Origin: Micromonospora sp. NBC_01813
GTDB lineage: Bacteria > Actinomycetota > Actinomycetes > Mycobacteriales > Micromonosporaceae
Direction of reading: 5' to 3'
Length of the DNA: 64,000 bases
Assembly: GCF_035917335.1 (NCBI RefSeq)
Contig: NZ_CP109067.1
Location: 1,924,501 to 1,988,500 of the forward strand
In this document: piece after piece, positions 43,435-63,476 of the stretch
How positions within the stretch are numbered: the first letter of the stretch is position 1
How the letters are laid out: each line of letters begins with the position of its first letter
Translations under genes and position numbers: made by a program
Notes under the pieces: generated by a model
Databases searched by the model: none
Told to the model about the DNA's origin: nothing
Seen by the model: the letters and a program-made list of their open reading frames with translations, nothing else

Positions 43435-43938
43435 TCAGCCGGTCGCCCTCGGTGCGATGGCGACCCGGGCCGTCCCGACAGCGAGACCTCGGCCGGCGTC
43501 AGTGAACCGGAAGCCGGTATCGATCGAGATCAACGGTTCCCGATCGACCCAGAGCGTTCGGGCGATGACCCGCTCGATGGTCAACTGTCCGACGAACGAA
43601 CGCGGGTCGAGCGGCCTGCGGAACTCGTTCGTGCTTTTGACGATCAGGACGTCAGGCAGCCGCCGCCGCCAGTAGTCGTCCAGGGTCCAGTGAGCCAGCG
43701 CCGGCTCGGTGCGGTCTCGGACCGCTGCGCCCAGCGCGGTGTAGAGCAACTGGTTGTAGCAGATGGACACTTCGACGGCGTTGAGATGACCGGTGTCGTC
43801 GATATAGCAGGACTCCGGGATGGCAAGCCTGCCCTCGGTGCGTCGTCCATGCACACTGGCCGACAGCAGGTAACGACAGTGCGGCTTGTAACAGGACAGC
43901 ACCTCGGTCAGGAGGTCCTCCGCGACAGCCGTGCTCAC
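43435..43938 (-). CDS. FcoT/ScoD-like thioesterase of isonitrile lipid biosynthesis
   Basis: A 167-aa hot-dog-fold protein of the FcoT type (Rv0098 of M. tuberculosis; ScoD of Streptomyces). In isonitrile lipopeptide clusters this enzyme works on the ACP-bound unsaturated acyl chain, adding glycine and releasing the N-carboxymethyl amino acid used by the oxygenase. Recognisable parts are [26 protein letters not shown] and the closing [18 protein letters not shown]. Its GTG overlaps the oxygenase stop by 4 bp, the same pairing as in Rv0097-Rv0098. Function is assigned by family and context. Confidence 0.85.
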
Positions 43939-44795
43939 CGGTCAGATCGCGGATCGTCGTACACAGTCACCCGGTAGGACACCGTCGGTTCGGGGGTGGT
44001 GGTGTGCAGCGCCCGGTGCACCAGGCTCCTGTTGTCCCAGACCAGGATGTCGCCCTTGTCGTAGGTCTGCAGGTGGATGGCAGGGTGGGTGAAGGTGTCG
44101 TCGAGCTGGCCCGTGTGCTCCAGCAGTTCGCGCAGCAGGTCGGGTCGTGACCGACCGTCGGCGTCGGTGATCGACAGGGTGAAACCGGCACTCAGGTAGA
44201 GGATGGTCTCGTCGGTGTGGCGGTGCGGGTACGCGGTCGGCAGTTGCACCGGCGGGGTCTTGGCGTCGACCTCGTCGATCACCTCCGACAGCGGTCGGTA
44301 CACGTCGCTGGGGCGAATCTTGAAGTACCGGCGGACGCTGTGGGTGGCCGTGGTGTCCTTGACCGCTAGTTTGAGCTCCTCGGGCAGGGTCTCGTACGCC
44401 CTGCACAGGTCGATGAAGTAGGTGCCCCGGTTCCTGGTGGGCACGACCTGCGGATAGATGAAGGTGATGTCGAACGGGCGGGGCATGAACTGGTAGTCCG
44501 AATGCCAGAACTTGCCGGTCTTGGGGACCCCGATCTGCTTCTCACCGTCGGAGACGTTGGAGGAGACGAACACCTCGGGTACGTCCGGGTGATGGTAGAT
44601 CGGCTCGTAGTAGGCCGCAGGTTCGCCGAAGCGGGAACCCAGCGTGAGGAAGCCTTGCGGATCGAGATCCTGGCCCTTGATGACCACGATCTTCTCCCGG
44701 TAGACGGCGGCTCTGACCTCGCGTACGTCGTCGTCAGAGGTCGGGTCGAAGCCCTCCACGACCAGGCCGAGGCCGGCCTGCTTGCTGGTCTTCAT
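43935..44795 (-). CDS. Isonitrile-forming Fe(II)/2-oxoglutarate oxygenase (ScoE/Rv0097-like)
   Basis: A 286-aa TauD-fold oxygenase. Iron ligands are His98 and Asp100 (FWHSDYQF) and His260; His264 and Arg275 follow at the spacing I recall for the ScoE active site, as does the YYEPIY tyrosine cluster (62-67). ScoE-type enzymes oxidatively decarboxylate an N-carboxymethyl beta-amino acid to an isonitrile. Taurine dioxygenases share the fold, but the FcoT and ACP neighbours favour the isonitrile role. GAGGAG lies before the ATG, 15 bp after the ACP gene. Product use as a copper ligand is inferred from the copper genes around. Confidence 0.9.
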
Positions 44796-44810
44796 GGTGA
44801 TTCTCCTCGG

Positions 44811-45047
44811 TCAGCGAGCGGTGACGTACGTGACCAGGTCACCGACGGTGGTGATCCCCGGCAGGTCGTCGTCGGGGATCTCGATCCCGTGATCGCGCTC
44901 CAACGAAAAAAGCAGATCGACGAAGCTCATCGAGTCGACGCCGATCTCATCGAAGGTGTACTCTTCCTCAAGGTGCGGTAGTGGGTCGTCGGGGTTGAGT
45001 GCGAGGGCGAAATCACGCACCAGTTCACGGATCTGTTCTGCTGTCAC
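44811..45047 (-). CDS. Acyl carrier protein (ScoB/Rv0100-like)
   Basis: A 78-aa acidic carrier protein with the phosphopantetheine site GVDSM (Ser39). It starts at a GTG overlapping the KAS III stop by 4 bp and is followed by the oxygenase and thioesterase genes. In the known pathway the ACP is loaded by a FadD10-like ligase, here encoded at 59754-61286, with a short enoyl chain that receives glycine. Confidence 0.93.
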   Translation of the reverse strand: MTAEQIRELVRDFALALNPDDPLPHLEEEYTFDEIGVDSMSFVDLLFSLERDHGIEIPDDDLPGITTVGDLVTYVTAR

Positions 45048-46087
45048 AACACGCGTTCTCCTTCTGTTCGGGCGGCGGCTTCCGTTCGGGCAGCGACGAC
45101 GAGTTCCGGCCAGGTGAGAGCCGCCGCCCCCCACGTTGTCCCACCGCCGAAGGCGGTGAGCAGCACCCGGTCGCCCCGGCTGAGTACCCCGGCAGCAGCC
45201 GCGTCGGCCAGCGCGAGGGGAACCGACGCCGCGACAGTGTTACCCACATCCGCGATGTTGGAGTAGACCCGTTCCGGTGCGATTCCCAACTCTGCGCCGA
45301 CCGTGGCCAGGATTCGGGCGTTGGCCTGGTGGGCGATCAGATGGTCGACCTCTCCGGATCTCCAGTCGGCCAGAGCCAGCACCGACTGAGCGGTCGCCGT
45401 CATCCGCCGGACGGCGTGCCGGTAGACCGCCTGGCCCCGCATGACGAACCAGCGATCATCCTCATCCACGCCATCGCGTCGGGGCCGCCGGGATCCGCCG
45501 GCTGGCACGGTGATCAGGTCCTCCTGGGTACCGTCGGCACCAAGATCGAAGCCGAGCAGCTCACCGGGCTCCCCCGGCTCGCCCGCGCGCAGCACCATCG
45601 CGCCGGCGCCATCGCCGAAGACCGCCGCGGTGGCCCGATCGTCGGGGTCAAGGATCGTGGAGAAGGCGTCAGCGCCGATCAGCAGGACTCGCCCGGCGGT
45701 GCCCGCCGCGATCATGCCGTCAGCTACGGAGAGCGCGTAGACGAATCCGGAGCACACGGCGGAGATGTCGAACGCGGGGACCGTGCCCAATCCCAGCCGG
45801 GCGGCGACGACCGGCGCGGTGGCCGGACACGGCCGATCCGGAGTAGCTGTGGCGAGGATCACCATATCGACGTCGGTGCTACCGGCCGATTCGAGAGCCA
45901 ACCGCCCTGCGACCACCGCGAGGTCTGATGTCGACTGCCCAGGCTCGACGCGGCGGCGCGCCGAAATGCCGGTCCGACTGACGATCCACGCGTCGGTGGT
46001 GTCGAAGTGACGGGCCAACTCGGCGTTGGTCACCACCCGATCAGGTGTACAACCGCCGATGCCCGCTACAACAGATGATCTACGCAC
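45044..46087 (-). CDS. FabH-like ketoacyl-ACP synthase III
   Basis: A 347-aa KAS III with intact Cys112 (AVCSGF), His in AHQANARIL and Asn in DVGNTVAASVP. It could condense an acyl-CoA with malonyl-ACP or transfer an acyl group to the next-door ACP. It is first in the ACP-oxygenase-thioesterase operon, an addition I do not know from the standard sco or Rv0097-Rv0101 clusters. It might make the fatty chain itself or link the isonitrile unit to a partner. The GTG start at 46087 gives a normal FabH N-terminus (VVAGIGGCTPDRVV). It diverges from a permease gene. Confidence 0.9.
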   Translation of the reverse strand: MRRSSVVAGIGGCTPDRVVTNAELARHFDTTDAWIVSRTGISARRRVEPGQSTSDLAVVAGRLALESAGSTDVDMVILATATPDRPCPATAPVVAARLGLGTVPAFDISAVCSGFVYALSVADGMIAAGTAGRVLLIGADAFSTILDPDDRATAAVFGDGAGAMVLRAGEPGEPGELLGFDLGADGTQEDLITVPAGGSRRPRRDGVDEDDRWFVMRGQAVYRHAVRRMTATAQSVLALADWRSGEVDHLIAHQANARILATVGAELGIAPERVYSNIADVGNTVAASVPLALADAAAAGVLSRGDRVLLTAFGGGTTWGAAALTWPELVVAARTEAAARTEGERVL

Positions 46088-46113
46088 GGTCCAATGGTCG
46101 CGCTCTGACCAGG

Positions 46114-46141: not shown

Positions 46142-46167
46142 AGCGAGTCCACCCCGACTTCTGGATC

Positions 46168-47085
46168 ATGGCGTTGTTCCCCGACCGCTGGCACCGCCGG
46201 CTGCCCGTGGCTGCCCTCGGGCTCATGCTCCTGCTCACCCCAGGGGTGGTAGCGGTGGTCGCCGTACCCGACCCGACCCTGGTGCTGGCAGCCGCTGCGG
46301 CCGGAGCCGGGCTGGGACTGGCCGGGGTGTGTCTGCGGACGCTGCTTCGTGATCCGCTCGCCGACCCCCAGCTGGTCGGTGTGTCCTCGGGTGCCGCGCT
46401 CGGAGCGGTGGTCGCGCTCGCGCTGGGGGCGACCGCCACGGTCTCGGTGGCCGGTTCAGCGTTCGTCGGGGCGTTGGCCGGCCTGCTCGTCGTGCTGGTG
46501 TTGGCTCGGGCCCGGCCCGCGTCCGGGGTCCTGCTGACCGGCGTCGGCGTCACGTACGCGGCCACGGCGCTGGTCGCCGTCGCGCAGTCCTACACCACGC
46601 CGCGCCTTTCGCCGGATCTGGTGTTCTGGCTGCTCGGCGCAGACGCCGATGGGATCTGGGCGGGGGCGGCGGTGCCCGCGTCGGCCACGGTCCTGTGCGC
46701 GGGAGTACTGATGAGCCGGACCCGGGCGATCGACGCCGCCATCGCCGATGCGGACAGCACGGCGTTCCGCATGTCAGCGACCCGGACCCGGGTGCTGCTC
46801 CTGGTGGCCTGTGCTCTGCTGACCGCGGCCTCGGTCAGCAGCGTCGGCGGGGTCGGCTTCGTCGGGCTCCTGGCGTCGCACGCCGCGCAACGGCTGGTCG
46901 GCGTCGGCCACCTGCGCGTCATGCCGGTCGCGATGGTCATCGGCGCGGCCACGGTGGTGGCGGCTGTCCTGGTGAGTCAACGGGTCGGCTCGACCGGCCG
47001 GGTCCCGGTCGGGGTCGTCACCGCCGCGGTGGGGGCACCGCTGTTCATCACGTTGCTACGAAGCCGAACAAGGAGTGCCAGGTGA
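46168..47085 (+). CDS. FecCD-family ABC permease next to isonitrile genes
   Basis: About 305 aa, polytopic, with LLRDPLADPQLVGVSSGAAL and GFVGLLASHAAQRLVG. The ATG at 46168 gives the normal cytoplasmic N-terminus; the frame opens earlier (46045) but only inside the divergent gene. It forms an importer with the ATPase that follows, yet no binding protein gene is nearby. Divergence from the isonitrile genes suggests uptake of a metal-isonitrile complex, which is inference. Confidence 0.9.
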   Translation: MALFPDRWHRRLPVAALGLMLLLTPGVVAVVAVPDPTLVLAAAAAGAGLGLAGVCLRTLLRDPLADPQLVGVSSGAALGAVVALALGATATVSVAGSAFVGALAGLLVVLVLARARPASGVLLTGVGVTYAATALVAVAQSYTTPRLSPDLVFWLLGADADGIWAGAAVPASATVLCAGVLMSRTRAIDAAIADADSTAFRMSATRTRVLLLVACALLTAASVSSVGGVGFVGLLASHAAQRLVGVGHLRVMPVAMVIGAATVVAAVLVSQRVGSTGRVPVGVVTAAVGAPLFITLLRSRTRSAR

Positions 47086-47846
47086 AGGTGGAGGTACGTT
47101 CGGTGACGGTCACCGTCGACGGTGACCGTCTGATCGGTGATGCCGGATTCGTCGCTGAGCCCGGCACGGTGACCGGTCTGGTCGGCCCGAACGGTGCCGG
47201 AAAGACGACTCTGCTGCGCTGCGTTTCCCGGGCGGTGCGACCGGCCGCCGGCACGGTATCGGTCGGCGCTGAGGACGTATGGCGCGCTGGCGCGCGTTCG
47301 GTGGGCCGACGGGTCGCGGTGGTCGCCCAGCACACCGGTGGGTCGGTCGGCTGGTCCGCCGGGGAGACCGTCGAGATGGGTCGCTACCCGTACCGGGGCC
47401 TACTGGCCCGGGGCGATGGGGACACCACGATCGTGCGATCGGCGCTGTCCGCGGTCGGCATGGCCTGGGCTGCGGATCGGCACGTCGCACAGTTGTCCGG
47501 CGGCGAGCGCCAGCGGGTGATGCTGGCCCGGGCGCTGGCCCAGCGGGCACCGGTGCTGCTGCTGGACGAGCCCGGCAGCCACCTGGATGTCCGGGCCCGG
47601 CTGGAACTGTTCGACCTGGTCCGCGGGGTCGGCGCCACCACCGTCGTCGCGCTGGGTGACCTCGACGACGCGGTCACCCACTGCGACCGGCTGGTCATGT
47701 TGCACCGGGGTGCGGTGGTCGCGGCGGGAACTCCGCTGGAGGTGTTGACCGCGGAGCGGGTGAGCGAGGTCTTCGGGGTGCGCTGTGCGATCGTCCCGCA
47801 CCCGCTGACCGGACGACCACATCTGGTGACGGCGGCGGTGCCGTGA
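47082..47846 (+). CDS. ABC transporter ATP-binding protein (FecE-type)
   Basis: A 254-aa ATPase with Walker A GPNGAGKTT, signature LSGGERQR, Walker B VLLLDEPGSHLD (Gly-Ser where relatives have Thr-Asn) and a modified H-loop ALGDLDDA, in which the usual His is Gly. The switch His normally needed for ATP hydrolysis is therefore not where expected. Its GTG overlaps the permease stop by 4 bp. Confidence 0.9.
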   Translation: MKVEVRSVTVTVDGDRLIGDAGFVAEPGTVTGLVGPNGAGKTTLLRCVSRAVRPAAGTVSVGAEDVWRAGARSVGRRVAVVAQHTGGSVGWSAGETVEMGRYPYRGLLARGDGDTTIVRSALSAVGMAWAADRHVAQLSGGERQRVMLARALAQRAPVLLLDEPGSHLDVRARLELFDLVRGVGATTVVALGDLDDAVTHCDRLVMLHRGAVVAAGTPLEVLTAERVSEVFGVRCAIVPHPLTGRPHLVTAAVP

Positions 47847-47905
47847 CCAGGTGCCCGCGAGGGCACTGCGGGACAGGGCAGCGGCCAGGCCCGTCGCGAT
47901 TATTT

Positions 47906-47918
47906 CTACATGACGTAG
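47906..47918. promoter_or_regulatory. BlaI/CopY-like palindrome before the glycan operon
   Basis: CTACA TGA CGTAG lies in the AT-rich part of the 217-bp gap between the ATPase gene and the first glycosyltransferase. It matches the palindrome at 58609-58623 except for one arm base. A possible -10, TAGTAT (47916-47921), overlaps it on the plus strand. The TACA/TGTA core is typical of BlaI, MecI and CopY repressor sites. Confidence 0.5.
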
Positions 47919-48063
47919 TATTCGTTCCCCGATGGGACGTGGAGAGGCGGTCGTCCGTGGGTTCAGTCGTGATGCTCGGTGTCGGATCACAGCGGGCAGT
48001 CGCACCGGTGGCGTCCAGCCGGACGGCCCGCGTTGCACGGCCCGGCCCCGGCCAGGTACGACC

Positions 48064-48882
48064 ATGACCGGGAGCACGCCCGGGCCACCCCGGGTTTCGG
48101 TAGTGATTCCCTCCCTCGACGAGGCCGACAACCTGGAGGCGGTCATCCCCGGGGTCGCCGCCGAGTACGAGGTCATCGTGGTCGAAGGCGTCCGGTACCG
48201 GCGTACCAGCGAATTGCTGCGCCACCTCAGGCCGGACGCGATCGTCGTCGAGCAGAACCGCTACGGCAAAGGCAACGCGCTCGCCTGCGGATTCGCCGCG
48301 GCCACCGGCGACATCATCGTGATGTTCGACGCCGACGGATCAGCCGACAGCGCCGAGATTGCCCGGTTCGTCGACGCGGTGGCTCAAGGAGCGGACTTCG
48401 CCAAGGGAACCCGCACCAACGGCGGTGGCAGCGACGACATCACCGTTCTGCGCGGCATCGGCAACTGGGGGCTGACCAGGCTCACCAACCTGCTGTTCCG
48501 CACCCGCTACTCCGACCTGTGCTACGGCTTCAACGCCTTCCGCCGCGAGGTACTGCCGGTACTCGACATCCCGCTACCCGACGCCAGCGACGGTCCGATG
48601 CGCTGGGGCGAAGGCTTCGAGGTGGAGACCCTGATCAACTGTCGGGTCGCGCGGGCAGGCATCACCGTCGTCGAGGTACCGAGCCACGAACGACGCCGGG
48701 TGCACGGCGTGAGCAACCTCAACGCGTGGCGCGACGGCAAACGGGTGCTGCGTACCCTGCTACGCGAGCGGCGCCGCCCGCCGACGCGTCCCACGCCGTC
48801 GATGTCCATGCCCACCATCCCCGCGCCCCGGGTCCCCGAGGCCGAGATCGATACCACCCTCCAGGAGCGACCCGCCGGATGA
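48064..48882 (+). CDS. Family 2 glycosyltransferase (polyprenyl-phosphate type)
   Basis: A 272-aa GT-A enzyme: PRVSVVIPSLDEADNL start, DAD metal motif in IVMFDADGS (about 87-92), and a C-terminal region like polyprenyl-phosphate mannosyl- or glucosyltransferases (RYSDLCYGFNAFRR). The ATG at 48064 follows CCAGGT. It opens a plus-strand operon in which every gene overlaps the next, so all products probably act on one envelope or extracellular glycan. The sugar is unknown. Confidence 0.88.
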   Translation: MTGSTPGPPRVSVVIPSLDEADNLEAVIPGVAAEYEVIVVEGVRYRRTSELLRHLRPDAIVVEQNRYGKGNALACGFAAATGDIIVMFDADGSADSAEIARFVDAVAQGADFAKGTRTNGGGSDDITVLRGIGNWGLTRLTNLLFRTRYSDLCYGFNAFRREVLPVLDIPLPDASDGPMRWGEGFEVETLINCRVARAGITVVEVPSHERRRVHGVSNLNAWRDGKRVLRTLLRERRRPPTRPTPSMSMPTIPAPRVPEAEIDTTLQERPAG

Positions 48883-50855
48883 GCGCCCGCACACCCCCCA
48901 CCCTCGGCGTCGTCGTCTGCACCTACACCGATCACAGGGAGGCCGGCCTGGGTCGGTTGATCGACGCGGTCACCGCAGAACTCGGTCCGGCCGACCGGCT
49001 GTACGTCGTCGTCGACCACAACCCGTCACTAGCTGGCCGGATCGCCGAACAGACTGCGGCAGCGGTCGCCGTGACCGTCCTGGAGAACACCCGCTCGCGG
49101 GGACTCTCCGGCGCCCGCAACTGCGGTGTCGAAGCGGGCGGGGAGGACGTCGTGGTCTTCTTCGACGACGACGCCGTGCCCCGGACCGGCTGGGCGGCGG
49201 CCGTCCACGAGCGGTTCGCCCGGACCGACAGCAACAACGCCGACATCGTCGGCGGTGCCGTCACCCCGGTCTGGGCCGGACGGGCGCAGTCGCCAGCCTG
49301 GTTTCCGCCCGAGTACGGCTGGGTGGTCGGCTGCGACTACCCCGGTTTGCCCGGCGACGGAGCCCGGGTACGTAATCCCATCGGGGCCTGCATGGCGGTG
49401 CGACGTCAGGTGTTCGACCAGGTCGGCCTGTTCACCGAGAGCGTCGGGCGGCGCGGCGAACTGCCGATCGGCTGCGAGGAGACCGAACTCGCCATCCGGC
49501 TCACCGCCAGCCGGCCGCAGGCCCGAATCCTGCGGGACACCCGGTTGCAGGTCGACCATCTCGTACCGGCGCAACGGCAGCGCCCGACGTACCTGGTCCG
49601 CCGCTGCTTCCACGAGGGACGGTCAAAGGCCCGGTTGGTCCGGCTGGCCGGTCGGGCCGCCCTGTCCACCGAGGCCGCTCACGTCTCCGGCACCCTCGCC
49701 CGCGCCTGGCGACGTGACGCGGCCCGACTGCTACGCGGTGAAGCCGCTGCCGCCGCCCGGTTGGCGCTGAGCCTGCTCGGGCTGGGCTGCGCCGGGGCGG
49801 GATACCTCGTCGGCATCCCCGCCCGACGGGTCACCCCCGGCGCCCCCGCCGGTGGATCCGCGACCCGGCGTGCCGACGTCACCATCGTGCTGTGCACCCT
49901 GGGCACCAGCCCACACCTACCCGACAGTGTCGAGGCGCTGCTCCGGCAGGATCTGCCCGCGATCGATGTCGTCGTCGTCGACAACGACCCGGCGTCCGGC
50001 ACCACCCGTACCGTCCTGTCCGGTCTGGCCGACGACCGGCTCCGAATCGTCGACGAACCCCGGCGCGGGCTGTCGCACGCGCGCAACCGGGGAGTTCACG
50101 TCGCACGGTCGGCGGTGGTCGCCTTCACCGACGACGACGCGATCGCCGACCCCGACTGGGCGCGGAACCTGGTGGCTGGCTTCGGCGACCCGGTTGACGG
50201 GATCGTCTGCGTGACCGGCCGGGTGCTCGCCGCCGCGACCGACACCGATCCGCAACGGTGGTTCGAGGCCGGTGCCGGATTCGACAAGGGCGCCAACCCG
50301 CTGGTGTGGCGGCCCGGACCCGGCGACGACCCGCACCCAGACGCCGGGCCACGCGGGCCGCTGTACCCGTTCGCCGCCGGCGAGTTCGGCTCTGGCAACA
50401 ACATGGCCTTCCGCCGGTCGTTCCTACTCACCACCGGCGGGTTCGCCGCCGCACTCGGCGCCGGTGCCCCGACCCGGGGCGGCGAGGACCTGGACATGTT
50501 CCGGCGAGTGGTGCTCGCCGGACACGGGCTCCGCTACGAGCCCACCGCGGTGGTCCGCCACCACCACCGGCCCACCTTCGCCGCCCTCCGGGCGCAGATG
50601 TACGCCTACGGAACCGGAATGGCGGCCAGCGTCACCCGGTACGCGCTGTCGAGCCCGGCGGCGTTCGCGCGGATCGTCCTCCGGCTGCCCGACGCCGCCG
50701 CGATGCTGTTGAGTCCGGCGTCGCCGAAGAACATCCGCAAGGACCCCGGCTATCCGCGGGCCCTCGACCGAGCCGAACGCGCCGGCTACCTCGCCGGGCC
50801 GGTGCTGTTCCTTGCCGCGGCGACGCGGGAAGCTCTCAGCGGAGGGCCTCGGTGA
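48879..50855 (+). CDS. Fusion of two family 2 glycosyltransferase domains
   Basis: A 658-aa protein carrying two GT-A domains. Domain 1 (about 8-230): VVVCTYTDHREA, FFDDDAVP, then CEETELAIR. Domain 2 (about 325-590): TIVLCTLGTSPHLPDSVEALL, FTDDDAI, GGEDLDMF. Both keep the acidic metal motif. A hydrophobic stretch (about 293-310) between them may touch the membrane. Two activities in one chain suggest that a repeating disaccharide or two successive linkages are made. The ATG overlaps the previous stop by 4 bp. Confidence 0.88.
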   Translation: MSARTPPTLGVVVCTYTDHREAGLGRLIDAVTAELGPADRLYVVVDHNPSLAGRIAEQTAAAVAVTVLENTRSRGLSGARNCGVEAGGEDVVVFFDDDAVPRTGWAAAVHERFARTDSNNADIVGGAVTPVWAGRAQSPAWFPPEYGWVVGCDYPGLPGDGARVRNPIGACMAVRRQVFDQVGLFTESVGRRGELPIGCEETELAIRLTASRPQARILRDTRLQVDHLVPAQRQRPTYLVRRCFHEGRSKARLVRLAGRAALSTEAAHVSGTLARAWRRDAARLLRGEAAAAARLALSLLGLGCAGAGYLVGIPARRVTPGAPAGGSATRRADVTIVLCTLGTSPHLPDSVEALLRQDLPAIDVVVVDNDPASGTTRTVLSGLADDRLRIVDEPRRGLSHARNRGVHVARSAVVAFTDDDAIADPDWARNLVAGFGDPVDGIVCVTGRVLAAATDTDPQRWFEAGAGFDKGANPLVWRPGPGDDPHPDAGPRGPLYPFAAGEFGSGNNMAFRRSFLLTTGGFAAALGAGAPTRGGEDLDMFRRVVLAGHGLRYEPTAVVRHHHRPTFAALRAQMYAYGTGMAASVTRYALSSPAAFARIVLRLPDAAAMLLSPASPKNIRKDPGYPRALDRAERAGYLAGPVLFLAAATREALSGGPR

Positions 50856-55284: not shown

Positions 55285-56147
55285 CCAGAAGACACCCGGC
55301 TCGGGTCGCCGCAGCGGCGACGGTGGTGGCGGTCGTCGCGACCGTGGCGTTGGCTGCGGCTGGCGGTACGCTGCCCTCGATGGCCGCTGTCCCGACCGAC
55401 TGCCAGCCACCGGGCGAGCCGTGGCCCGTGGGCTTCGTCGACGACTTCGACGACGCGACCCTCGGCCCGAACTGGTCGGTCTACACCGGCCAGCCGAGCT
55501 CGGATCCGCGGACCCGCTGGCACCGCAACCAGGTGACGGTCCGCGACGGTGCCCTGGTGCTGTCCGGTCAGCCCCGGCCGGACGGTTCAGGGCTCTGGTT
55601 CACCGGCGGGGTGTCGAATTGGCGCCAGGCACGGGTCTACGGCCGCTGGGACATCCGGTTCCGGGCCCCGGCCAGCCCGGTGCTCAGCTACCACTTCCTG
55701 CTGTGGCCACAGGCGGAGCGTTGGCCGCCGGAGATCGACATCATCGAGGGATTCACCGAGACCCGTCAGCGGGCCGAGACGTTCGTCCACTGGGTGGATC
55801 CGGACGGTGGCGGGCGGCGACGTGCCCAGTTCACCGCCCAGGCGGACTTCACCCAATGGCGTACGGCGTCCGTGGTCTGGACCCCGGACGCGGTCTGTTT
55901 CAGTGTCGACGGTGCGCCGGTCGGCGCAGTGACCGGTGCCGCCGTGCCGCACGAGCCGATGTGGCTCGCGTTGCAGACCGAGACCCAGGTCGGCGGTACG
56001 GCGACCGGCGGTGAACACTACGTCGAGGTGGACCAGGTACGGATCAGCGCGCTGGCGGCCGCAGACCCGGGTCGGGGTGGCCGGGAGCCGCTGCCGACCA
56101 GCGTGCCGGCACCGGCCCGGGCGCAGCGAACGCGGCCGACCCTGTAG
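55281..56147 (+). CDS. Secreted GH16-family glycoside hydrolase/transglycosylase
   Basis: A 288-aa protein with a signal peptide and the GH16 catalytic motif EIDIIE (Glu151, Asp153, Glu156). It has a jelly-roll fold with a terminal Pro-rich tail. GH16 enzymes cut or rearrange beta-linked glucans, galactans and related polymers. As last gene of the operon it probably trims or releases the polysaccharide made by the upstream enzymes. Confidence 0.9.
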   Translation: MTRRHPARVAAAATVVAVVATVALAAAGGTLPSMAAVPTDCQPPGEPWPVGFVDDFDDATLGPNWSVYTGQPSSDPRTRWHRNQVTVRDGALVLSGQPRPDGSGLWFTGGVSNWRQARVYGRWDIRFRAPASPVLSYHFLLWPQAERWPPEIDIIEGFTETRQRAETFVHWVDPDGGGRRRAQFTAQADFTQWRTASVVWTPDAVCFSVDGAPVGAVTGAAVPHEPMWLALQTETQVGGTATGGEHYVEVDQVRISALAAADPGRGGREPLPTSVPAPARAQRTRPTL

Positions 56148-57323: not shown

Positions 57324-58609
57324 TGGTCGGCCCGCAGGGTTCGGCGCAGCAGGATGACCAGTGGTGGGGTGGCGGCGGCAAGGACGAGCAGGTCGTGGAC
57401 GGCGTAGGCCCACGCGACGGCGACGATGCCCATCGGTTCCAGCCACAGCACGACCAGGGCCACCAGCACGACCGAGCCGACCGCCTGCACCGCCATCGGG
57501 TAGGCGATCTGACGATGCACCCTCGCCAGGGCACCGTAGAGGTAGCCGGGACCGGACAGCAGGTGGACCACGCCCATGACCAGCAGCAGGGGTGTGCCGG
57601 CGGCGGCGTACTCGCTGCCGTAGAGCAGCAGCGCGACCGGCCCGGCGACACCGACGGCCAGTCCGCGCAGCAGGCAGACAGCGACCAGCACCCGGATGAA
57701 CGAACGGGTCAGGGCCGGCAGGTCGGCTCCTGGGCGAGCGGCGGCACTGACGTACGGGCCGCTGGCCAGCGACATCACCAGCAGCGAGGCGGTGACCACC
57801 GTCCAGGCGATGTTGTAGTACGCGGCTTGCTCGACGCCCACTGTCGCCAGCACCGCCACCGGGATGACCAGACCGGGCACCGACTGGGCCAGCATCCAGC
57901 CGAACGAGACTCCGGCGTAGCCGGCCAGTTCGCGCGATGGTGGCAGCGAGGACGGTTCGACCCGGCCGCGTCGACGCAGGGCCACGAACAGCAGGCTCTC
58001 GACGATGACGACCGCGACAGCGGCAGGAACGATCCAGCCGGCGACAATGGCAAACCCGCTGCCCGACGACGACACCGCGACGATGGCGGCGAGTTTGGCC
58101 ACCGCATGGGCGGTGTTCTTTGCGGCCGCCCAGCGCGCCCGGTGCACCCCGATGACGACGGAGTCGAGCAGCGCGAAGGCGGCGAGGATGGTGACCGCCG
58201 CGACGAAGGCCAGCGACTGCGCCCAACCAGTGGTCAGATCGCCTGCGGCGACGGCGACGAAGCCAGCGCCGAGTACGACGGAAAGGCAGCCGGACAGCGC
58301 CAGTCCGGCGGCGATCAACCGGCCGCGCAGCTCGCCGGCGGCTGGCAGGAAACGTTCGAAGAGCGGACCGAGGCTGAGATTGGCCACGCTGGCGAGCACG
58401 GTCGCGGCGTTGACCGCTGTGGTGGCCTGCCCGACTGCCTCGACCGGGTAGAGGCGGGTCGCCGCCATCCAGAACACGAGTCCGAGCACGGAGGTCGCGG
58501 CGCTCGACAGGACCAGGCTCGCGGCGTCACCCCGGAGTCGGCCGGCACCGGGCCGAGGCGCGGTGGCCGGGCCGGGGGCGTCCGAGCGCGGGGCCGACCA
58601 GGTCTTCAT
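57320..58609 (-). CDS. Polysaccharide flippase/O-antigen-type transporter (MATE/MOP superfamily)
   Basis: A 429-aa protein with about 12 membrane segments, starting LRGDAASLVLSSAATSVLGLVFW, like Wzx and related flippases that move lipid-linked oligosaccharides outward. The ATG at 58609 directly abuts a palindrome that contains a good -10 element, so the mRNA is probably leaderless. It pairs with the GT4 gene. Confidence 0.88.
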   Translation of the reverse strand: MKTWSAPRSDAPGPATAPRPGAGRLRGDAASLVLSSAATSVLGLVFWMAATRLYPVEAVGQATTAVNAATVLASVANLSLGPLFERFLPAAGELRGRLIAAGLALSGCLSVVLGAGFVAVAAGDLTTGWAQSLAFVAAVTILAAFALLDSVVIGVHRARWAAAKNTAHAVAKLAAIVAVSSSGSGFAIVAGWIVPAAVAVVIVESLLFVALRRRGRVEPSSLPPSRELAGYAGVSFGWMLAQSVPGLVIPVAVLATVGVEQAAYYNIAWTVVTASLLVMSLASGPYVSAAARPGADLPALTRSFIRVLVAVCLLRGLAVGVAGPVALLLYGSEYAAAGTPLLLVMGVVHLLSGPGYLYGALARVHRQIAYPMAVQAVGSVVLVALVVLWLEPMGIVAVAWAYAVHDLLVLAAATPPLVILLRRTLRADQ

Positions 58610-58623
58610 CTACATATTGTAGA
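58609..58623. promoter_or_regulatory. BlaI/CopY-like operator overlapping a leaderless promoter
   Basis: TCTACA TAT TGTAGA is a perfect palindrome. On the minus strand it contains TACAAT, a good -10 hexamer, six bases before the flippase ATG, which implies transcription starting at or next to the ATG. No clear -35 is visible. A repressor bound here would block the -10. The site also lies about 115 bp before the plus-strand carrier-thioesterase gene. Confidence 0.6.
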
Positions 58624-58736: not shown

Positions 58737-59738
58737 GTGAACCCGGACGAGGTCGTCCCGCCCCGCACCTCCATGGAGCGGGAGGTCGCCCGCGCCTGGT
58801 CCGGCGCGCTCGGCATCGACCCGATCGGCCGTGACGACCGGTTCACCGACCTCGGCGGGACCTCGCTCGCCGCGGAGAAGGTGCTTGTCGACCTACGGAC
58901 CCGGCTCGCCGTACCCGCCGAGGCGGATCTGTTCTCCGACGCGCCGACCCTGGCTGAGCTCGCCGAACGGATCGAGAAGCGGCGTCGGGCCCAGTTCCGC
59001 TCCGGTACGACGACCTGCGTACGGCTCGGCGGCCCGAGCGACCCGGTCGAACCACCGGTGTTCTGCTTCGCCGGTGCCGGCGCCACCGGGGTCTCCTTCC
59101 TCGGACTCGCCGCCGCCCTGGGTAGCCAGCGGACCGTCTACGCCGCGCACGCACACGGCTACACATCGCGGGCACTGCCGTCCTGGACGGTACGGAGCCA
59201 CGCACGACGGCACCTGCGCGACGTGCTGCGCCACCAGCCCGACGGCCCCTACTACCTGGTCGGCCACTCGTTCGGCGGCCACATCGCGCTGGCCGTCGCC
59301 GACCTACTCGCCGCCCGCGGCCGTGAGGTCGCCGCCGTGGTCCTGCTCGACACGGTCCTGAAGAAGACCCCGCACGGTTCGGTGGCCGACTACCGGCAGG
59401 GCGCTGCGGCAACTCCCCCGCCGCTGGCCGAACGGCTACGCACCCATCTGCGGGTGCTCACCGCCGGGATCGTGCAGTACGACGCCCCGACCCAGCAGGC
59501 CGCTTTCTGGGAGCGGGACATCCGCGCGCAGAACCGGATCCGACCCGGTGCCGTCCCGGCCAACACGGTGGTGCTGGTGTCCGACCAGAACGCCGATCAG
59601 GAGGCGCTCTGGGCCCAGTCGGCCGGGCCACGGATCCGGCGGGTCCCCGGCGACCACTACGCCGTCCTCAACGCCCCCGTACAGATCCGCGCGATCGCCG
59701 AGGAACTCGCGACGCCGGACACACGACCAACCTCCTGA
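58737..59738 (+). CDS. Carrier protein-thioesterase didomain
   Basis: A 333-aa protein: a carrier domain with DLGGTSL (Ser43), then an NRPS-type thioesterase with GHSFGG (Ser178) and a late DHYAVL His. It looks like the last two domains of an NRPS without condensation or adenylation parts. It could accept an aminoacyl or isonitrile-acyl unit from a separate enzyme and release it. It lies 15 bp before the ligase gene, so it belongs to the isonitrile/copper operon. Start: GTG at 58737 after GGACGGG. Confidence 0.9.
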   Translation: MNPDEVVPPRTSMEREVARAWSGALGIDPIGRDDRFTDLGGTSLAAEKVLVDLRTRLAVPAEADLFSDAPTLAELAERIEKRRRAQFRSGTTTCVRLGGPSDPVEPPVFCFAGAGATGVSFLGLAAALGSQRTVYAAHAHGYTSRALPSWTVRSHARRHLRDVLRHQPDGPYYLVGHSFGGHIALAVADLLAARGREVAAVVLLDTVLKKTPHGSVADYRQGAAATPPPLAERLRTHLRVLTAGIVQYDAPTQQAAFWERDIRAQNRIRPGAVPANTVVLVSDQNADQEALWAQSAGPRIRRVPGDHYAVLNAPVQIRAIAEELATPDTRPTS

Positions 59739-59753
59739 CCGCCGAGGAGCCTC

Positions 59754-61286
59754 ATGATCCACCACCCCCAGTTGAGCACGATGACCGACACCATCACGTT
59801 CCACAGCACCCGGATCCCTGACCGCCCAGCGGTGCTGACCAGCACCGGACAGCGGTCGACCTACCGGGAGCTCGCCCAGGCCAGCGAGGCGCTCGCCGCC
59901 GGTCTCGTCACGCTCGGTGTCGGTGCCGGCGACCGGGTGGCCTACCTAGGTCGCGAAGCACCCGCCTACTGGGAGCTGCTGTTCGCCGCCGCCAGGATCG
60001 GCGCGGTGCTGGTGCCGGTGAACTGGCGACTGACCGCTGTCGAGGTGGAGCACATCCTGGTGGACTCGGACACCGTGGTGGTCTTCCTCGACGGGGACCA
60101 CCCGCTACGCGGTACGACCGGCCGACACGAGGTGATCACCGACACGGGCTACCCGGCCTGGCGGGACACCCTGCGCCCGCCCGCGCCACCGTACGACGCC
60201 ACCCCTTCGACGCCGCTCGCCCAGCTGTACACCAGCGGCACGACCGGGCTACCCAAGGGCGTCCTGCTGCCGCACCGCAGCTTCTTCGCCATCCGGGACT
60301 CGCTCGCTGACGCGGGCCTCGACTGGATCGACTGGATCGACGGTGACATCGCCCTGATCGGCATCCCCGGGTTCCACATCGGTGGCCTGTGGTTCGCGAC
60401 TCAGGCGTTCCACGCCGGTGCAGCCGTCTACAGCATGCCGGTCTTCGACCCGGCCACTGTCCGCCGAGCGGTCCGCGACGACGGCGTGACCACCGCGATC
60501 TTCGTGCCCGCCATGATGCGTTCCATCGTCTCCGACGGCCAAGGGGCGGACGACTTCACCGGGCTCCGCAAGATCATCTACGGCGGTGCACCGATCTCCG
60601 AGGCGCTACTCGAAGAGTCCGTCCGGGTCTTCGACTGTGACTTCGCCCAGATCTACGGCCTGACCGAGACCGGCAACACCGCGATCTGCCTCCCACCGGA
60701 CCAGCACGTGCCCGGTTCCCCCCGACTGCGGGCGGCCGGCCGACCGTACCCAGGGGTCGAGGTCCGCATCGTCACCGACGGCCTTGAGGTCCCGCAGGGC
60801 AGCGTCGGCGAGGTGCACCTGCGGACCCCGGCGGCGATGCTCGGCTACTGGAACCTGCCGGACGCGACCGCGGCGACCCTGGTCGACGGCTGGGTACGCA
60901 CGGGCGACGCGGGCTATCTCGACAGCGAGGGGTACCTCTACATCCAGGACCGGGTAAAGGACATGATCCTGGTCGCTGGCGAGAACGTGTTTCCCGCCGA
61001 GATCGAGAACGCCCTCGCCGCCCATCCGAAGGTCGCCGATGCCGCCGTCGTCGGAGTGCCGGATGAACACACCGGCGAAGCGGTGCTCGCCCACGTCGTG
61101 TTCCGCCCCGGTGAGCAGGCGAGCACCCGGGAGTTGATGCTCTTCCTCCGTAGCCGGCTCGCCGACTTCAAGCTGCCCAACCGCTACGAGGTCATCGACG
61201 CCGTGCCACGTAACCCGAGTGGAAAGATCCTCCGCCGAGAACTACGCGAGCCGTACTGGCAGGGGCATGAGAGGCGGGTCAATTGA
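59754..61286 (+). CDS. FadD10/ScoC-like fatty acyl-AMP (acyl-ACP) ligase
   Basis: A 510-aa ANL-family ligase with YTSGTTGLPKG near 160, YGLTETGN, the TGDAGYLD loop and C-terminal PRNPSGKILRREL. In isonitrile clusters a FadD10-type ligase loads a short fatty acid on the dedicated ACP; here that ACP is encoded at 44811-45047, about 15 kb away. A ribosome site GAGGAG precedes the ATG. It could be a general acyl-CoA ligase, but its carrier-protein and copper-gene neighbours favour the specialised role. Confidence 0.85.
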   Translation: MIHHPQLSTMTDTITFHSTRIPDRPAVLTSTGQRSTYRELAQASEALAAGLVTLGVGAGDRVAYLGREAPAYWELLFAAARIGAVLVPVNWRLTAVEVEHILVDSDTVVVFLDGDHPLRGTTGRHEVITDTGYPAWRDTLRPPAPPYDATPSTPLAQLYTSGTTGLPKGVLLPHRSFFAIRDSLADAGLDWIDWIDGDIALIGIPGFHIGGLWFATQAFHAGAAVYSMPVFDPATVRRAVRDDGVTTAIFVPAMMRSIVSDGQGADDFTGLRKIIYGGAPISEALLEESVRVFDCDFAQIYGLTETGNTAICLPPDQHVPGSPRLRAAGRPYPGVEVRIVTDGLEVPQGSVGEVHLRTPAAMLGYWNLPDATAATLVDGWVRTGDAGYLDSEGYLYIQDRVKDMILVAGENVFPAEIENALAAHPKVADAAVVGVPDEHTGEAVLAHVVFRPGEQASTRELMLFLRSRLADFKLPNRYEVIDAVPRNPSGKILRRELREPYWQGHERRVN

Positions 61287-62296
61287 GCCGGTCCGCCGCC
61301 ATGGCCGGGTGCGTCGCGGGGGCGGCCCTGCTGTCGAGCCTGATCGTTCCGGCCACGGCACTGGCCGGCGAGCCCACCGAACTCGACGCTTCTGCCGGAC
61401 ACTGGTCGATGCGCACCGTTGCCGACACTCCCCGCATCGGGGAGCTGGTACTGGTCGCCAACGAACCCGGTGGACGTACGAGTGTCGAACTCACCGTCGA
61501 AAACCCCGGCGACAAGGCGGTCACCGTCGCCGTATCGACCGCGGCGGTCAGCACCGACGGCGGCGCCCTGGCCTACACCGAGTCGGACAGCGTCCTCGAC
61601 CCGGTCAACTGGGTCGCCGTACCGCAGGAACAACAGCGCATCACCGTACCGCCCGGCGAATCCGCCGCCGTCACCGTCACCGTCCGTACCCCGACCGCCG
61701 CTACCGGCGGCGACTACGCGGCCGGCGTCACCGCCGTCGCGTCGGACACCGGCGAGCGCCGGGCCGTCCCGTTGCTGGTCCGGGTGCCCGGCAGCCGGCC
61801 GTCCGGCCTGGAGCTGGCCGACGCCGACGCGCTGCAGACCCAGGGCACCGCCGGCTGGCCGCTCACCGGGTCGGTCCGACCGATCCGGTACCGGGTGGTC
61901 AACACCGGAACCACCGTCGTCGCGGGCCAGCTCAGCGTCGGGCTGGCAACCGTGTTCGACCGGTTCGCGGTCGTCGACGACGTCGGCGAGGTCGTCCTGC
62001 TGCCCGGCGACGAGGTCACCGGCACGGTCACCGGCACGGTGCCGCCCTCTGGGCCCGTCGCCCTCGAAGCCCGGGTCCGGGTCGGCTACCTGGGTCCGGA
62101 CGGCAGCGAACGCAGCTACCTCGTGCAGGCGACCGGCCCGAGCACGTTCGCCTTCCCCTGGTGGCTCTCCGCCGCGGCGCTCACGGTCCTCACCGTGACA
62201 ACGGCGGGATGGGCCACCGCACGACGGCGGCGAATCAGAGCCCTGGGCACGGCACCGCGCCCTCGGCAACCCGCCCAACCCGACGATTCGGAGTAG
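61283..62296 (+). CDS. Secreted, C-terminally anchored beta-sandwich protein (DUF916-like)
   Basis: A 337-aa protein with a signal peptide (cleavage near LAG), two Ig-like repeats (VELTVENPGDKAVTVAVS and later YRVVNTGTTVVAGQLSVG), one membrane helix (about 292-312) and a basic cytoplasmic tail. It looks like the extracellular WxL-interacting/DUF916-type proteins. It overlaps the ligase stop by 4 bp through a TTG start, so it is in the copper operon, perhaps as a surface scaffold for the copper proteins. Function unknown. Confidence 0.7.
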   Translation: MSRSAAMAGCVAGAALLSSLIVPATALAGEPTELDASAGHWSMRTVADTPRIGELVLVANEPGGRTSVELTVENPGDKAVTVAVSTAAVSTDGGALAYTESDSVLDPVNWVAVPQEQQRITVPPGESAAVTVTVRTPTAATGGDYAAGVTAVASDTGERRAVPLLVRVPGSRPSGLELADADALQTQGTAGWPLTGSVRPIRYRVVNTGTTVVAGQLSVGLATVFDRFAVVDDVGEVVLLPGDEVTGTVTGTVPPSGPVALEARVRVGYLGPDGSERSYLVQATGPSTFAFPWWLSAAALTVLTVTTAGWATARRRRIRALGTAPRPRQPAQPDDSE

Positions 62297-62301
62297 GACC
62301 G

Positions 62302-62949
62302 ATGAACACCACACATCCCACACGGCGGCGGGTCGCCACAGCGCTGGCCGCGCTCGGCGCGGCAGCGGCCGCCGTCCTGACGATCGGTTCTCCCGCCCAC
62401 GCCCATGACCAGGTGATCGAGCAGTTCCCGAAGGCGGACGCCCAGCTACCCGAGGCACCGGACCGGATCTCGCTTACCTTCACCTCGCCGGTGCTCGACA
62501 TCGGGGCCATCATGATGGTCGTGGACCCGTCCGGAAAGAACTGGGCCACCGGGGATGCGACGATCACCGACGCGGCCGTCGTGCAGCCGCTGCCGGAGGA
62601 CATGGCCGACGGCAACTACCAGGTGCGGTGGCGGGTGGTCTCCGGTGACGGGCACCCGCTCAGTGAGAGCTTCCTCTTCTCCGTCGGCGACGTGACCGGC
62701 GCGCCGACCTTTCCCGAACCGGCCTCCGGCGCGGAGCCGACCGACGGCCTGGACAACGCGAACCAGGGCGAGTTCGCCCTGACCGGCGCCATCGACGACA
62801 CCACACAGTCACAGCAGGCGGTGCCCCGCGCCGCGCTGTTCGGCTTCGGCGGCACCGTCCTCGGGCTGCTCCTGTTCACCATTGGCAGATCCGCTGCTGG
62901 CCGCCCAGGCCGGCGGTCTCGGCCTGACCTGAAAGGGACGACACCATGA
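62302..62949 (+). CDS. copC: Copper resistance protein CopC
   Basis: A 215-aa protein. The signal peptide ends at AHAH, so the mature chain starts with the His that binds Cu(II) in CopC. The domain shows PDRISLTFTSPV and the conserved SGDGHPLSESFLFSV near its end. A C-terminal helix (about 180-196) anchors it. It has no CopD partner in the window. Confidence 0.92.
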   Translation: MNTTHPTRRRVATALAALGAAAAAVLTIGSPAHAHDQVIEQFPKADAQLPEAPDRISLTFTSPVLDIGAIMMVVDPSGKNWATGDATITDAAVVQPLPEDMADGNYQVRWRVVSGDGHPLSESFLFSVGDVTGAPTFPEPASGAEPTDGLDNANQGEFALTGAIDDTTQSQQAVPRAALFGFGGTVLGLLLFTIGRSAAGRPGRRSRPDLKGTTP

Positions 62950-63476
62950 ACGGACTCCGGAGCAGCGTCGCCGCTGCCGCCCTCGCGCTCGGCCTTCTCG
63001 GCGGAGTCGCCGGGTGCACCGACGCGAACGCCACCGACACCTCGACCGGGGACGACGTCACGTCGGCCGCCGCCGAGCAGGCCGCCGACGTGACGGTGCA
63101 GGACACCTGGGTCAAGGCGGTCGACTCGGGCATGACGGCGGCGTTCGGCCTGCTGGTCAACGACAGCGACCGGGACGTACGGGTGGTGTCCTCCACCTCG
63201 GACGCGTCCCCTGTGATGGAACTGCACGAGACGGTGGAGAGCACCGACGGCCAGATGGTGATGCGGGAGAAGGACGGCGGCTTCATCATCCCGGCGAACT
63301 CGCAGTACGTGCTCCAGCCCGGAGCCAACCACCTGATGCTGATGGACGTCGTCCAGCCGATCAAGGCAGGCGACGTGGTCACGTTCGCCGTGGAGTTCGA
63401 GGACGGCTCGGCCTTCGAGTTCGAGGCCCCGGTCAAGGACTACACGGGCGCCAACGAAAGGTACGTCGATGAGTGA
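62946..63476 (+). CDS. PCu(A)C-type periplasmic copper chaperone lipoprotein
   Basis: A 176-aa lipoprotein (lipobox GVAGC, Cys24) with the copper site of the PCuAC family: His in MELHETV, Met in MVMREKDGG and HLMLM, matching H-x(n)-M-x(n)-H-x-M. It hands Cu(I) to cytochrome oxidase or other cuproenzymes. It overlaps CopC by 4 bp and the peroxidase by 8 bp. Confidence 0.93.
   Translation: MNGLRSSVAAAALALGLLGGVAGCTDANATDTSTGDDVTSAAAEQAADVTVQDTWVKAVDSGMTAAFGLLVNDSDRDVRVVSSTSDASPVMELHETVESTDGQMVMREKDGGFIIPANSQYVLQPGANHLMLMDVVQPIKAGDVVTFAVEFEDGSAFEFEAPVKDYTGANERYVDE

Follow-up and report, generated by a model that had tools for sequence, protein, structure and literature searches.

The window analysed here is a 64,000-nucleotide stretch of the single-contig, 7.63 Mb genome of Micromonospora sp. 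NBC_01813 (G000; C1:1,924,501-1,988,500). Toward its right-hand end lies a 20-kb unit, running from an FcoT gene to a DyP peroxidase gene, in which genes for isonitrile formation stand on either side of a glycan block and are joined to copper genes. The unit is very probably one functional locus. Its features are as follows, G306 being a second genome of the same family but another genus, used as the main synteny reference, and percentages being protein identities.

43435..43938, minus strand: FcoT/ScoD-like glycyl transferase-thioesterase (PF10862, 164 bits, 2.5e-48; NF049938, 187.7 bits; PDB 5wsy, 142 bits; G306 73%)
43935..44795, minus strand: ScoE-type Fe/2-oxoglutarate isonitrile-forming oxidase/decarboxylase (NF049937, 446.5 bits; PDB 6dch, 401.8 bits)
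44811..45047, minus strand: acyl carrier protein (ACP) with DSM serine (PF00550; G306 79%)
45044..46087 (gene caller start 46036), minus strand: ketoacyl-ACP synthase III, KAS III (NF006829, 377.5 bits against a cut-off of 249; Cys, His and Asn motifs kept)
46168..47085, plus strand: FecCD-type importer permease (PF01032)
47082..47846, plus strand: FecE-type importer ATPase, by BLAST and not Pfam (G306 81%; 46-58% relatives adjoin FecCD in other loci)
47906..47918, no strand: palindrome CTACATGACGTAG in the FecE/GT1 gap, one mismatch to CTACAN3TGTAG
47932..48882 (start uncertain: ATG at 47932, gene caller 48103), plus strand: glycosyltransferase GT1, family 2 (PF00535)
48879..50855, plus strand: double-domain glycosyltransferase GT2 (PF00535, two stretches)
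50852..53023, plus strand: MEM, a 723-aa membrane protein and glycan-locus marker (a simple scan gives 14 hydrophobic segments; no Pfam family matched)
53020..53238, plus strand: P72, a 72-aa membrane protein after MEM (G306 75%; Corynebacterium and Nocardia counterparts by size and place only)
53235..54305, plus strand: serine hydrolase of the beta-lactamase/esterase family with an N-terminal hydrophobic segment (PF00144; Corynebacterium 39%)
54295..55284, plus strand: glycosyltransferase GT3 (PF00535)
55281..56147, plus strand: GH16 glycoside hydrolase with an N-terminal hydrophobic segment (PF00722)
56187..57323, minus strand: glycosyltransferase GT4, group 1/4 domains (PF00534, PF13439)
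57320..58609, minus strand: FLIP, a 429-aa multi-pass membrane protein, "flippase-like" from context only (no Pfam match; G306 79%, Corynebacterium 51%)
58610..58622, no strand: palindrome CTACATATTGTAG in the divergent FLIP/PCP-TE gap, exact CTACAN3TGTAG
58737..59738, plus strand: stand-alone peptidyl carrier protein-thioesterase (PCP-TE) didomain (PF00550 and PF00975; PCP Ser43; TE triad Ser178/Asp205/His307)
59754..61286, plus strand: acyl-AMP ligase of isonitrile-cluster type (PF00501; in a clade with G306 and Corynebacterium, 100/99)
61283..62296, plus strand: WxLIP-like (WxL) protein with an N-terminal hydrophobic segment, probably at the surface (PF06030, 1.7e-9)
62302..62949, plus strand: CopC (PF04234)
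62946..63476, plus strand: PCuAC copper chaperone, an accessory paralog (PF04314)
63469..64000, running to 64746 past the window, plus strand: DyP peroxidase (TIGR01412, 76.8 bits for the incomplete frame, which is under the cut-off)

The genes named in an initial annotation of this DNA are present where it placed them, and intact. On the minus strand KAS III, ACP, ScoE and FcoT overlap or are at most 15 bases apart. Divergent from them is a plus-strand series, FecCD, FecE, GT1, GT2, MEM, P72, serine hydrolase, GT3 and GH16, in which all neighbours overlap except for about 85 bases separating FecE and GT1. GT4 and FLIP return to the minus strand; PCP-TE, ligase, WxL protein, CopC, PCuAC and DyP then follow, diverging from FLIP. 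As the genes from PCP-TE to DyP overlap or have gaps of no more than 15 bases, the copper genes CopC, PCuAC and DyP look like members of one operon with PCP-TE and the ligase. Downstream of DyP are genes for an M48 peptidase, a BlaI-family regulator, VKOR and DsbA. The 14 kb between the isonitrile genes, regarded initially as splitting them into two blocks, contains glycosyltransferases, membrane proteins and GH16 (Pfam); it is a conserved glycan locus, not a gap, and the cluster is not merely split.

The set of ScoE, FcoT, acyl ligase and ACP of diisonitrile lipopeptide clusters is complete in the locus. ScoE scores 446.5 bits against the equivalog model NF049937 (cut-off 400) and only 96 against the taurine dioxygenase model, and the nearest solved structures to it are those of ScoE itself (6dch, 401.8 bits). 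On alignment to 6dch, where the ligands are numbered His132/Asp134/His295, residues H98, D100, R123, K159, H260, H264 and R275 match metal-ligand and substrate residues; the two-His-one-Asp ligands and the equivalents of Arg310 and Lys193 are kept (H98, D100, H260, R275, K159). A single branch (100/99) of a 44-row tree separates 28 ScoE rows, the window's included, from 16 TauD-like rows of the same family, and so the oxygenase does not group with taurine dioxygenases. (Here and below, tree groups were named after neighbourhoods or earlier hits had been viewed, and the clade figures and those of the approximately unbiased, AU, test are descriptive.) The ligase scores 239 bits against the FadD10 model, far under its cut-off of 726, its top model being that of the general PRK06187 subfamily (500 bits). 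The motifs expected of KAS III, PCP and TE are all found. ScoE over cut-off occurs in 15 of 354 genomes of the family and, within the genus, in the window genome alone of seven. Isonitrile formation, as initially annotated, is thus upheld by profile and Pfam scores and by residues of the intact ScoE, FcoT, ACP and acyl ligase. The chemistry of ScoE is described in PMC7949033. That the unit makes a beta-isocyano fatty acid can be held with high confidence.

Every gene from FcoT to DyP is kept in the same order in G306, at 62-86% protein identity. Past DyP, M48 peptidase and BlaI-type genes are present in both genomes in opposite orientation, and VKOR with DsbA is to the right of the locus in G000 and to its left in G306. 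Linkage to copper genes holds for CopC, PCuAC and DyP, which overlap or lie within 15 bases of PCP-TE, ligase and WxL in an order kept in G306. It does not hold for CopZ, CopA and YcnI, initially counted in; these left-hand window genes, with Fur and DUF5134, have no synteny in G306. A compact version of about 15 kb is present in Corynebacterium sp. TAE3-ERU12 (2.2 Mb; L067, L260-L262), with the order ScoE-FcoT-GT1-GT2-MEM-P72-serine hydrolase-GT3-GT4-FLIP-PCPTE-ligase-WxL and a four-base overlap of FcoT and GT1. Since no relative of KAS III or ACP (nor of GH16, CopC or PCuAC) was found there by BLAST, the PCP of PCP-TE may be the sole carrier of that locus. Nocardia flavorosea has FecCD-FecE-GT1-GT2-MEM-P72-GH16, two PCP-TEs and FLIP, followed by ScoE-FcoT-ligase-GT87-ACP-NRPS, the last being a nonribosomal peptide synthetase. 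Within its isonitrile operon the GT87 glycosyltransferase gene (L065:12928-14166) overlaps both ligase and ACP.

The palindrome CTACAN3TGTAG stands in two gaps of the window locus: the copy between FLIP and PCP-TE (58610-58622) is exact, that between FecE and GT1 (47906-47918) has one mismatch. In the window 0.20 matches are expected by chance at up to one mismatch, and two were reached in 4 of 100 shuffles. G306 has exact copies in both corresponding gaps (one match at up to one mismatch arises in 9/200 and 17/200 shuffles of its 20-kb stretches), and the flanks agree at all four sites (TCTACAT...GTAG..TTC). Exact copies occur in only six of 332 loci, all of them from G000 and G306; the search covered loci, not whole genomes, and the palindrome had been spotted by eye beforehand, so that the shuffle figures are descriptive. 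Present in the same two promoter gaps of both genomes, the palindrome ties the operon of PCP-TE, ligase and copper genes to that of the glycan genes in two genera. The Corynebacterium stretch has no TACA-N2-4-TGTA. That the palindrome is a CopY/BlaI operator is only a guess: its spacing is unlike that of the CopY box, and there is no copy upstream of the BlaI-type gene.

No condensation (C) domain is present from FcoT to DyP nor within 3 Mb to the right, and among the 24 matches listed for G000 none falls between C1:1,928,658 and 5,100,066. The nearest to the left belongs to a hybrid polyketide synthase (PKS)/NRPS cluster at window 1-15942, about 39 kb from FcoT, and this has no counterpart adjoining the locus in G306. 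The initial statement that an adjacent NRPS is absent therefore stands. G306 has no over-cut-off C domain near the locus, the nearest being about 0.7 Mb off (one hit about 18 kb to the left has 21.2 bits, under the cut-off of 30.6); the Corynebacterium contig with the locus has none, all seven matches being on another contig. What does not stand is the proposal that KAS III takes the place of the NRPS. In 8 of 53 loci from a scan of named genomes (L040-L043, L046, L048, L051, L057) KAS3-ACP-ScoE-FcoT-ligase-NRPS are contiguous, and because these NRPS-type relatives carry it, KAS III is a normal member of the KAS3-ACP-ScoE-FcoT subtype and is ruled out as an NRPS substitute. Nor need the usual NRPS be dimodular, as had been supposed: ScoA is given as 158 kDa in PMC7949033, and the NRPS frames of the eight relatives are of 1302-1665 aa. 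Searched with the NRPS of Kutzneria, G000 gives at best 37% over the full length, rising to 45% in shorter stretches and to 49% in a single piece of 86 residues; identity to this query is 50-62% in the partner NRPSs of its nearest relatives (those of L040-L057 with a match) and 24-42% in more distant ones.

The left-hand cluster (window 1-38415) is separate, and is perhaps for another metallophore. Besides the hybrid PKS/NRPS (394-15942) it has genes for a nitroreductase-like protein, a TE-family protein, two YcaO proteins, an S15 peptidase, a major facilitator superfamily protein, two ABC transporter proteins (membrane and ATPase domains) and FecE/FecCD/substrate-binding protein-like products, followed by a Fur-family gene.

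The origin of PCP-TE is informative. In a 51-row tree (to which a coordinate filter admitted 6 of 13 given isonitrile-NRPS loci, G712 also being dropped) the five stand-alone PCP-TEs of isonitrile loci and 16 with a fused adenylation (A) domain, A-PCP-TEs, form one 21-row clade (100/99), within which the five group together (91/93). Outside it are 23 NRPS TEs, six isonitrile-NRPS TEs and one NRPS-type TE of genome G174. Since 15 of the 16 A-PCP-TEs come from loci with glycan-block genes, and PCP-TE groups with these, its being a remnant of an isonitrile NRPS is ruled out by the tree. The TE triad is kept in all 21 members. The aspartate that binds the alpha-amino group, at the position of Asp235 of PheA, is missing from the A domain in 17 of 17 aligned A-PCP-TEs, and therefore the acids loaded by these chassis are expected to have no alpha-amino group. 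The window locus has no A domain fused to PCP-TE; its ligase is a separate, isonitrile-type gene 15 bases downstream. Models of Pks13 (61 bits) and EntF (66 bits) give partial matches to PCP-TE, both far under cut-off; acyl transfer from a carrier-TE to a sugar has its precedent in mycobacterial Pks13, with trehalose. Plasmid searches with PCP-TE gave 29 records, all below 60% identity, with an NRPS annotation in seven of the best ten of the 29, and with ScoE gave relatives in three. One of the ScoE relatives (48%) is plasmid-borne in a cyanobacterium, Halotia branconii (NZ_CP124544.1:73504-74358).

Other acids appear to be supplied elsewhere. Beside A-PCP-TE loci, genes of the 3-amino-4-hydroxybenzoic acid (3,4-AHBA) type are found in G003 and in 11 of 20 neighbourhoods of Mycobacteriaceae sensu lato, 12 of which have the fused A-PCP-TE (L294-L332). 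They are for a dehydroquinate synthase II and a DhnA-type aldolase related, below cut-offs, to BagC/FevH and BagB/FevI (families tested on the G003 copies only). Dihydroxybenzoic acid (DHB; catechol) type genes are beside those of G003, G321, G324 and G174; as an NRPS is also present at the G003, G324 and G174 loci (G321 was seen in part), DHB is uncertain as the load of A-PCP-TE there. Both 3,4-AHBA and DHB carry metal-binding groups, and isonitriles are known copper ligands. The Mycobacteriaceae locus with A-PCP-TE, AHBA-type and glycan genes is possibly for an aryl-decorated polysaccharide, and no earlier account of it came up in a literature search.

The phylogenies of the two ends of the isonitrile set disagree. 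The ligase tree unites G000, G306 and Corynebacterium in one clade (100/99); placement of the G000 and G306 ligases with four from Pseudonocardiaceae is rejected (AU p 0.0003). The ScoE tree (54 rows, 14 mycobacterial or duplicate rows of 68 having been left out) groups G000 and G306 with Actinosynnema, which is of NRPS type (SH-like approximate likelihood ratio 92); in the 44-row ScoE/TauD tree the smallest supported three-row set with the window is again window, G306 and Actinosynnema (97/91). A clade of the three NRPS-less ScoEs (G000, G306, Corynebacterium) is rejected (AU p 0.003), the Corynebacterium sequence being a long branch. By these trees ScoE, at the front of the pathway, and the ligase, at its back, have different origins. 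With the acid supply exchanged and the chassis kept, the simplest reading is that a chassis of glycan genes, PCP-TE and ligase has acquired acid-supply genes more than once, free of NRPS in the Micromonosporaceae and Corynebacterium cases.

MEM served to follow the glycan block further. A search for it in the 35 genomes behind 36 of the 53 named loci matched three, Corynebacterium, N. flavorosea and Kutzneria, the copies of the last being megabases away from its ScoE locus. Though seven metallophore-linked rows fell into one clade of a first, 33-row MEM tree, the block as a general marker of metallophore loci was rejected, since the 20 Mycobacteriaceae neighbourhoods had it, or parts of it, without relatives of ScoE, FcoT, FecCD, binding protein or WxL. 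(These are 20 of 30 matching genomes, G378 and G376 not counted, and contig ends truncate some of them; the corresponding Micromonosporaceae sample is of 14 more distant loci, with 11 further rows of that family in the 33-row tree outside it.) All 19 rows of PCP-TE-bearing loci in a 42-row MEM tree are inside a 27-row clade, which takes in one truncated contig and seven rows lacking PCP-TE as well. Of the 15 rows outside that clade, 14 lack PCP-TE and one is that of Kutzneria, which was not among the neighbourhoods viewed. G174 and G343, which have A-PCP-TE without a MEM match, are absent from this tree. Of the four isonitrile rows only those of G000, G306 and Corynebacterium are a clade in it (100/100); all four do not fall together (two changes; a single clade in 6% of bootstrap trees).

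As to copper, Pfam confirms CopZ (HMA), YcnI (DUF1775), CopC and PCuAC; CopA is a 743-aa open reading frame with 47-56% BLAST relatives in many loci (not Pfam). Compared with the copies in five sister genomes (a sixth has no match), the window PCuAC shows 45-54% identity and the second copy of G000 72-80%. From this lesser likeness the window PCuAC is evidently an added paralog. In mycobacteria a copper-starvation role of diisonitrile lipopeptides, nrp and fadD10 is described in PMC9600254. That the product of the locus serves copper seems to us somewhat probable, the signs of it being those of gene context: CopC, PCuAC and the importer. Beside YcnI and CopZ/CopA there is also a small protein with a CGNCSCGCPELY motif (window 39459-39671, plus strand) and no family match.

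From descent, gene order and co-control, as read from the observed gene content, synteny and phylogeny, we tentatively favour an isonitrile-glycan locus in which PCP-TE would attach an isonitrile fatty acid to a copper-handling glycan or glycolipid. KAS III and ACP, with housekeeping reductase and dehydratase, would supply an enoyl thioester. By the known chemistry of their families, FcoT would add glycine and release a 3-(carboxymethylamino) acid, which ScoE would convert to the beta-isocyano fatty acid. The ligase would load this onto the PCP of PCP-TE, and the TE would pass the acyl group on to a glycan or glycolipid built by GT1-GT4, MEM and FLIP, at one of its hydroxyls or amino groups. 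At or outside the cell surface the decorated glycan would bind Cu(I) and hand it over to WxL/CopC/PCuAC and the FecCD/FecE importer. Instead of an NRPS joining two isonitrile acids to an amino acid, which is absent, the glycan would gather several isonitriles.

Several observations weigh against this reading. MEM and FLIP match no PDB profile and no Pfam family, so that the evidence for glycan assembly is the glycosyltransferases and GH16. No sequence feature stands behind TE action on a sugar, and the TE could hydrolyse or oligomerise. FcoT of the window is under the ScoD equivalog cut-off of 250 (NF049938, 187.7 bits), with the Pfam FcoT domain present (164 bits); Corynebacterium ScoE, at 395.5 bits, is just under 400 and its FcoT, at 157, well under 250. 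The PCP-TE next to ScoE in N. flavorosea has a Pfam thioesterase/hydrolase match and no carrier match, with the carrier serine motif present, and as its glycan block is beside a full isonitrile NRPS, the block need not replace the NRPS there. Around the remaining A-PCP-TE, of G343, some 40 kb contain no relative of GT1, GT2, MEM or FLIP. FecCD/FecE have no adjacent binding protein, the one at 36734-37795 being with another importer. Only four isonitrile-glycan loci were found, and glycan loci of the same family lack isonitrile genes in all 14 of the more distant Micromonosporaceae neighbourhoods and all 20 of those of Mycobacteriaceae sensu lato that were viewed; the chassis is thus supplied with an isonitrile only rarely, and its usual use is another. 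Finally, C domain matches are present elsewhere in all four isonitrile-glycan genomes (24 in G000, 21 in G306, 7 in Corynebacterium, 61 in Nocardia), and so an NRPS acting in trans is possible.

The same genes would also serve for a small glycosylated isonitrile, with PCP-TE releasing, oligomerising or esterifying the acid, one or more glycosyltransferases glycosylating it, and export of a soluble glycolipid chalkophore without any polymer. Glycosylated isonitriles such as rhabduscin exist, and the GT87 gene overlapping ligase and ACP in N. flavorosea fits this. However, four glycosyltransferase genes, GH16, MEM and FLIP exceed the needs of a monoglycoside, and related glycan blocks are found in loci without isonitrile genes; we consider it unlikely. 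That frequency of glycan loci lacking isonitrile genes is also what would be expected if an isonitrile cluster that lost its NRPS had come by chance to lie beside an unrelated glycan locus. Collinearity in two genera, the compact Corynebacterium version, the gene overlaps, the common palindrome and the position of PCP-TE in the glycan-locus clade make mere fortuitous proximity very improbable.

There are two further alternatives. The minus-strand isonitrile genes, ligase and PCP-TE could feed a distant NRPS (such as the 2719-aa one at C1:1193513-1197718, or the window PKS/NRPS) to give an ordinary diisonitrile lipopeptide, the glycan genes being mere neighbours. G000 has its 24 C domain matches and a 37% full-length match to draw on, and N. 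flavorosea retains its isonitrile NRPS beside the block. The partner NRPSs of the nearest relatives, however, share 50-62% with that of Kutzneria (distant ones 24-42%), no NRPS is near the G306 locus or on the Corynebacterium locus contig, and the common promoter motif and the FcoT/GT1 overlap bind the glycan genes to the locus; the arrangement is improbable. Alternatively the product could be a free isonitrile fatty acid, an antibiotic or signal like amycomicin, the TE acting only in release and the copper genes in self-protection. According to PMC13273461 amycomicin comes from a cluster of PKS type that includes an isonitrile step, and a KAS3-ScoE-P450-like-FcoT-ACP-PKS locus (L093) is present in the same family. 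Against that, the locus has no PKS or P450, an importer is present and the glycan chassis is retained in other genera, leaving a free acid with little likelihood.

If attachment to a glycan is correct, isonitriles would be deployed in a new way, with an acyl-transfer module linked to a glycan in place of the peptide synthetase; immobilised or polymeric metallophores would be indicated, and the TE reaction is directly testable. It is a more speculative suggestion, and on balance a doubtful one, that there is a general actinobacterial chassis in which PCP-TE attaches to a polysaccharide the metal-ligand acid that its supply genes happen to make (the aminophenol 3,4-AHBA, the catechol DHB or, for copper, a beta-isocyano fatty acid), the present locus being for a polymer-bound chalkophore. 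PCP-TE, glycan block and acid supply together provide a genomic handle for other decorated glycans, including the aryl-acid version frequent in the sampled Mycobacteriaceae neighbourhoods. Isonitrile chalkophores are known as small peptides. No earlier description of an isonitrile joined to a glycan locus was found among the titles and abstract openings listed for the open-access literature, which is not proof of absence. Overall, the initial annotation is supported as to the isonitrile, the lack of an adjacent NRPS and the copper linkage; it is not supported as to the KAS III swap, the split cluster and CopZ/CopA/YcnI, and it overlooked the glycan genes and the family of PCP-TE.

Other ScoE architectures were met in the scan. 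Seven genomes (L044 = L100, L045, L055, L096, L097, L103, L104) have CopA, ScoE, an NRPS with a terminal PCP-TE match and genes for binding protein-FecCD-FecE, with a KAS-like gene in six of the seven and no FcoT or FadD10 ortholog by tblastn. L093, of the same family as the window genome, is amycomicin-like: KAS3, ScoE, a 408-aa protein (P450-like by eye), FcoT, an ACP-like gene and a large PKS-like frame. The ScoE-FcoT gap in L095, L098, L099 and L101 resembles that of L093. In L092 (Actinophytocola oryzae) ScoE has only a small ACP-like gene adjoining and an importer about 6 kb off; nothing related to FcoT, ligase or NRPS lies within 10 kb of it.

Among known systems, the isonitrile lipopeptide clusters (sco of Streptomyces, SF2768 and mycobacterial nrp/Rv0097-Rv0101) have ScoE, FcoT, acyl ligase and ACP in common with the window locus. 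The latter differs in lacking the NRPS, in having a PCP-TE of the glycan clade, and in having the glycan block and the CopC/PCuAC/DyP operon built in. The eight KAS3-type loci of Pseudonocardiaceae and Actinomadura (L040-L043, L046, L048, L051, L057) have the KAS3-ACP-ScoE-FcoT order of the window, with ScoE up to 80% identical and importer genes near in six. Unlike the window they have ligase and NRPS next to FcoT, and seven of the eight genomes lack a MEM relative, the distant ones of Kutzneria lying far away. Rhabduscin-type products have the isonitrile joined to a sugar and are surface-associated, IsnA/IsnB making it from tyrosine by other chemistry, which is not known to involve a ScoE. 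Amycomicin is a fatty acid whose cluster has PKS and P450s and is not known to have glycan genes, and AmcQ is presumably ScoE-like; among the genes of the window locus scanned with Pfam (43435-63999) there is no PKS or P450, and it is not of this type. For amycomicin-type clusters, passages of PMC13273461 name the isonitrile step and AmcQ, and make no mention of an NRPS. The Corynebacterium locus is like that of the window in ScoE, FcoT, the same-order glycan block, PCP-TE, ligase and WxL, and in having no C domain on its contig, but its ScoE is of another lineage and KAS III, ACP, GH16, CopC and PCuAC are not found by BLAST. The A-PCP-TE glycan loci (Mycobacteriaceae sensu lato; G003, G321, G324) share GT1, GT2, MEM, GH16, FLIP and a homologous PCP-TE with the window, and have 3,4-AHBA-type or catechol (DHB) genes where the window has ScoE and FcoT.

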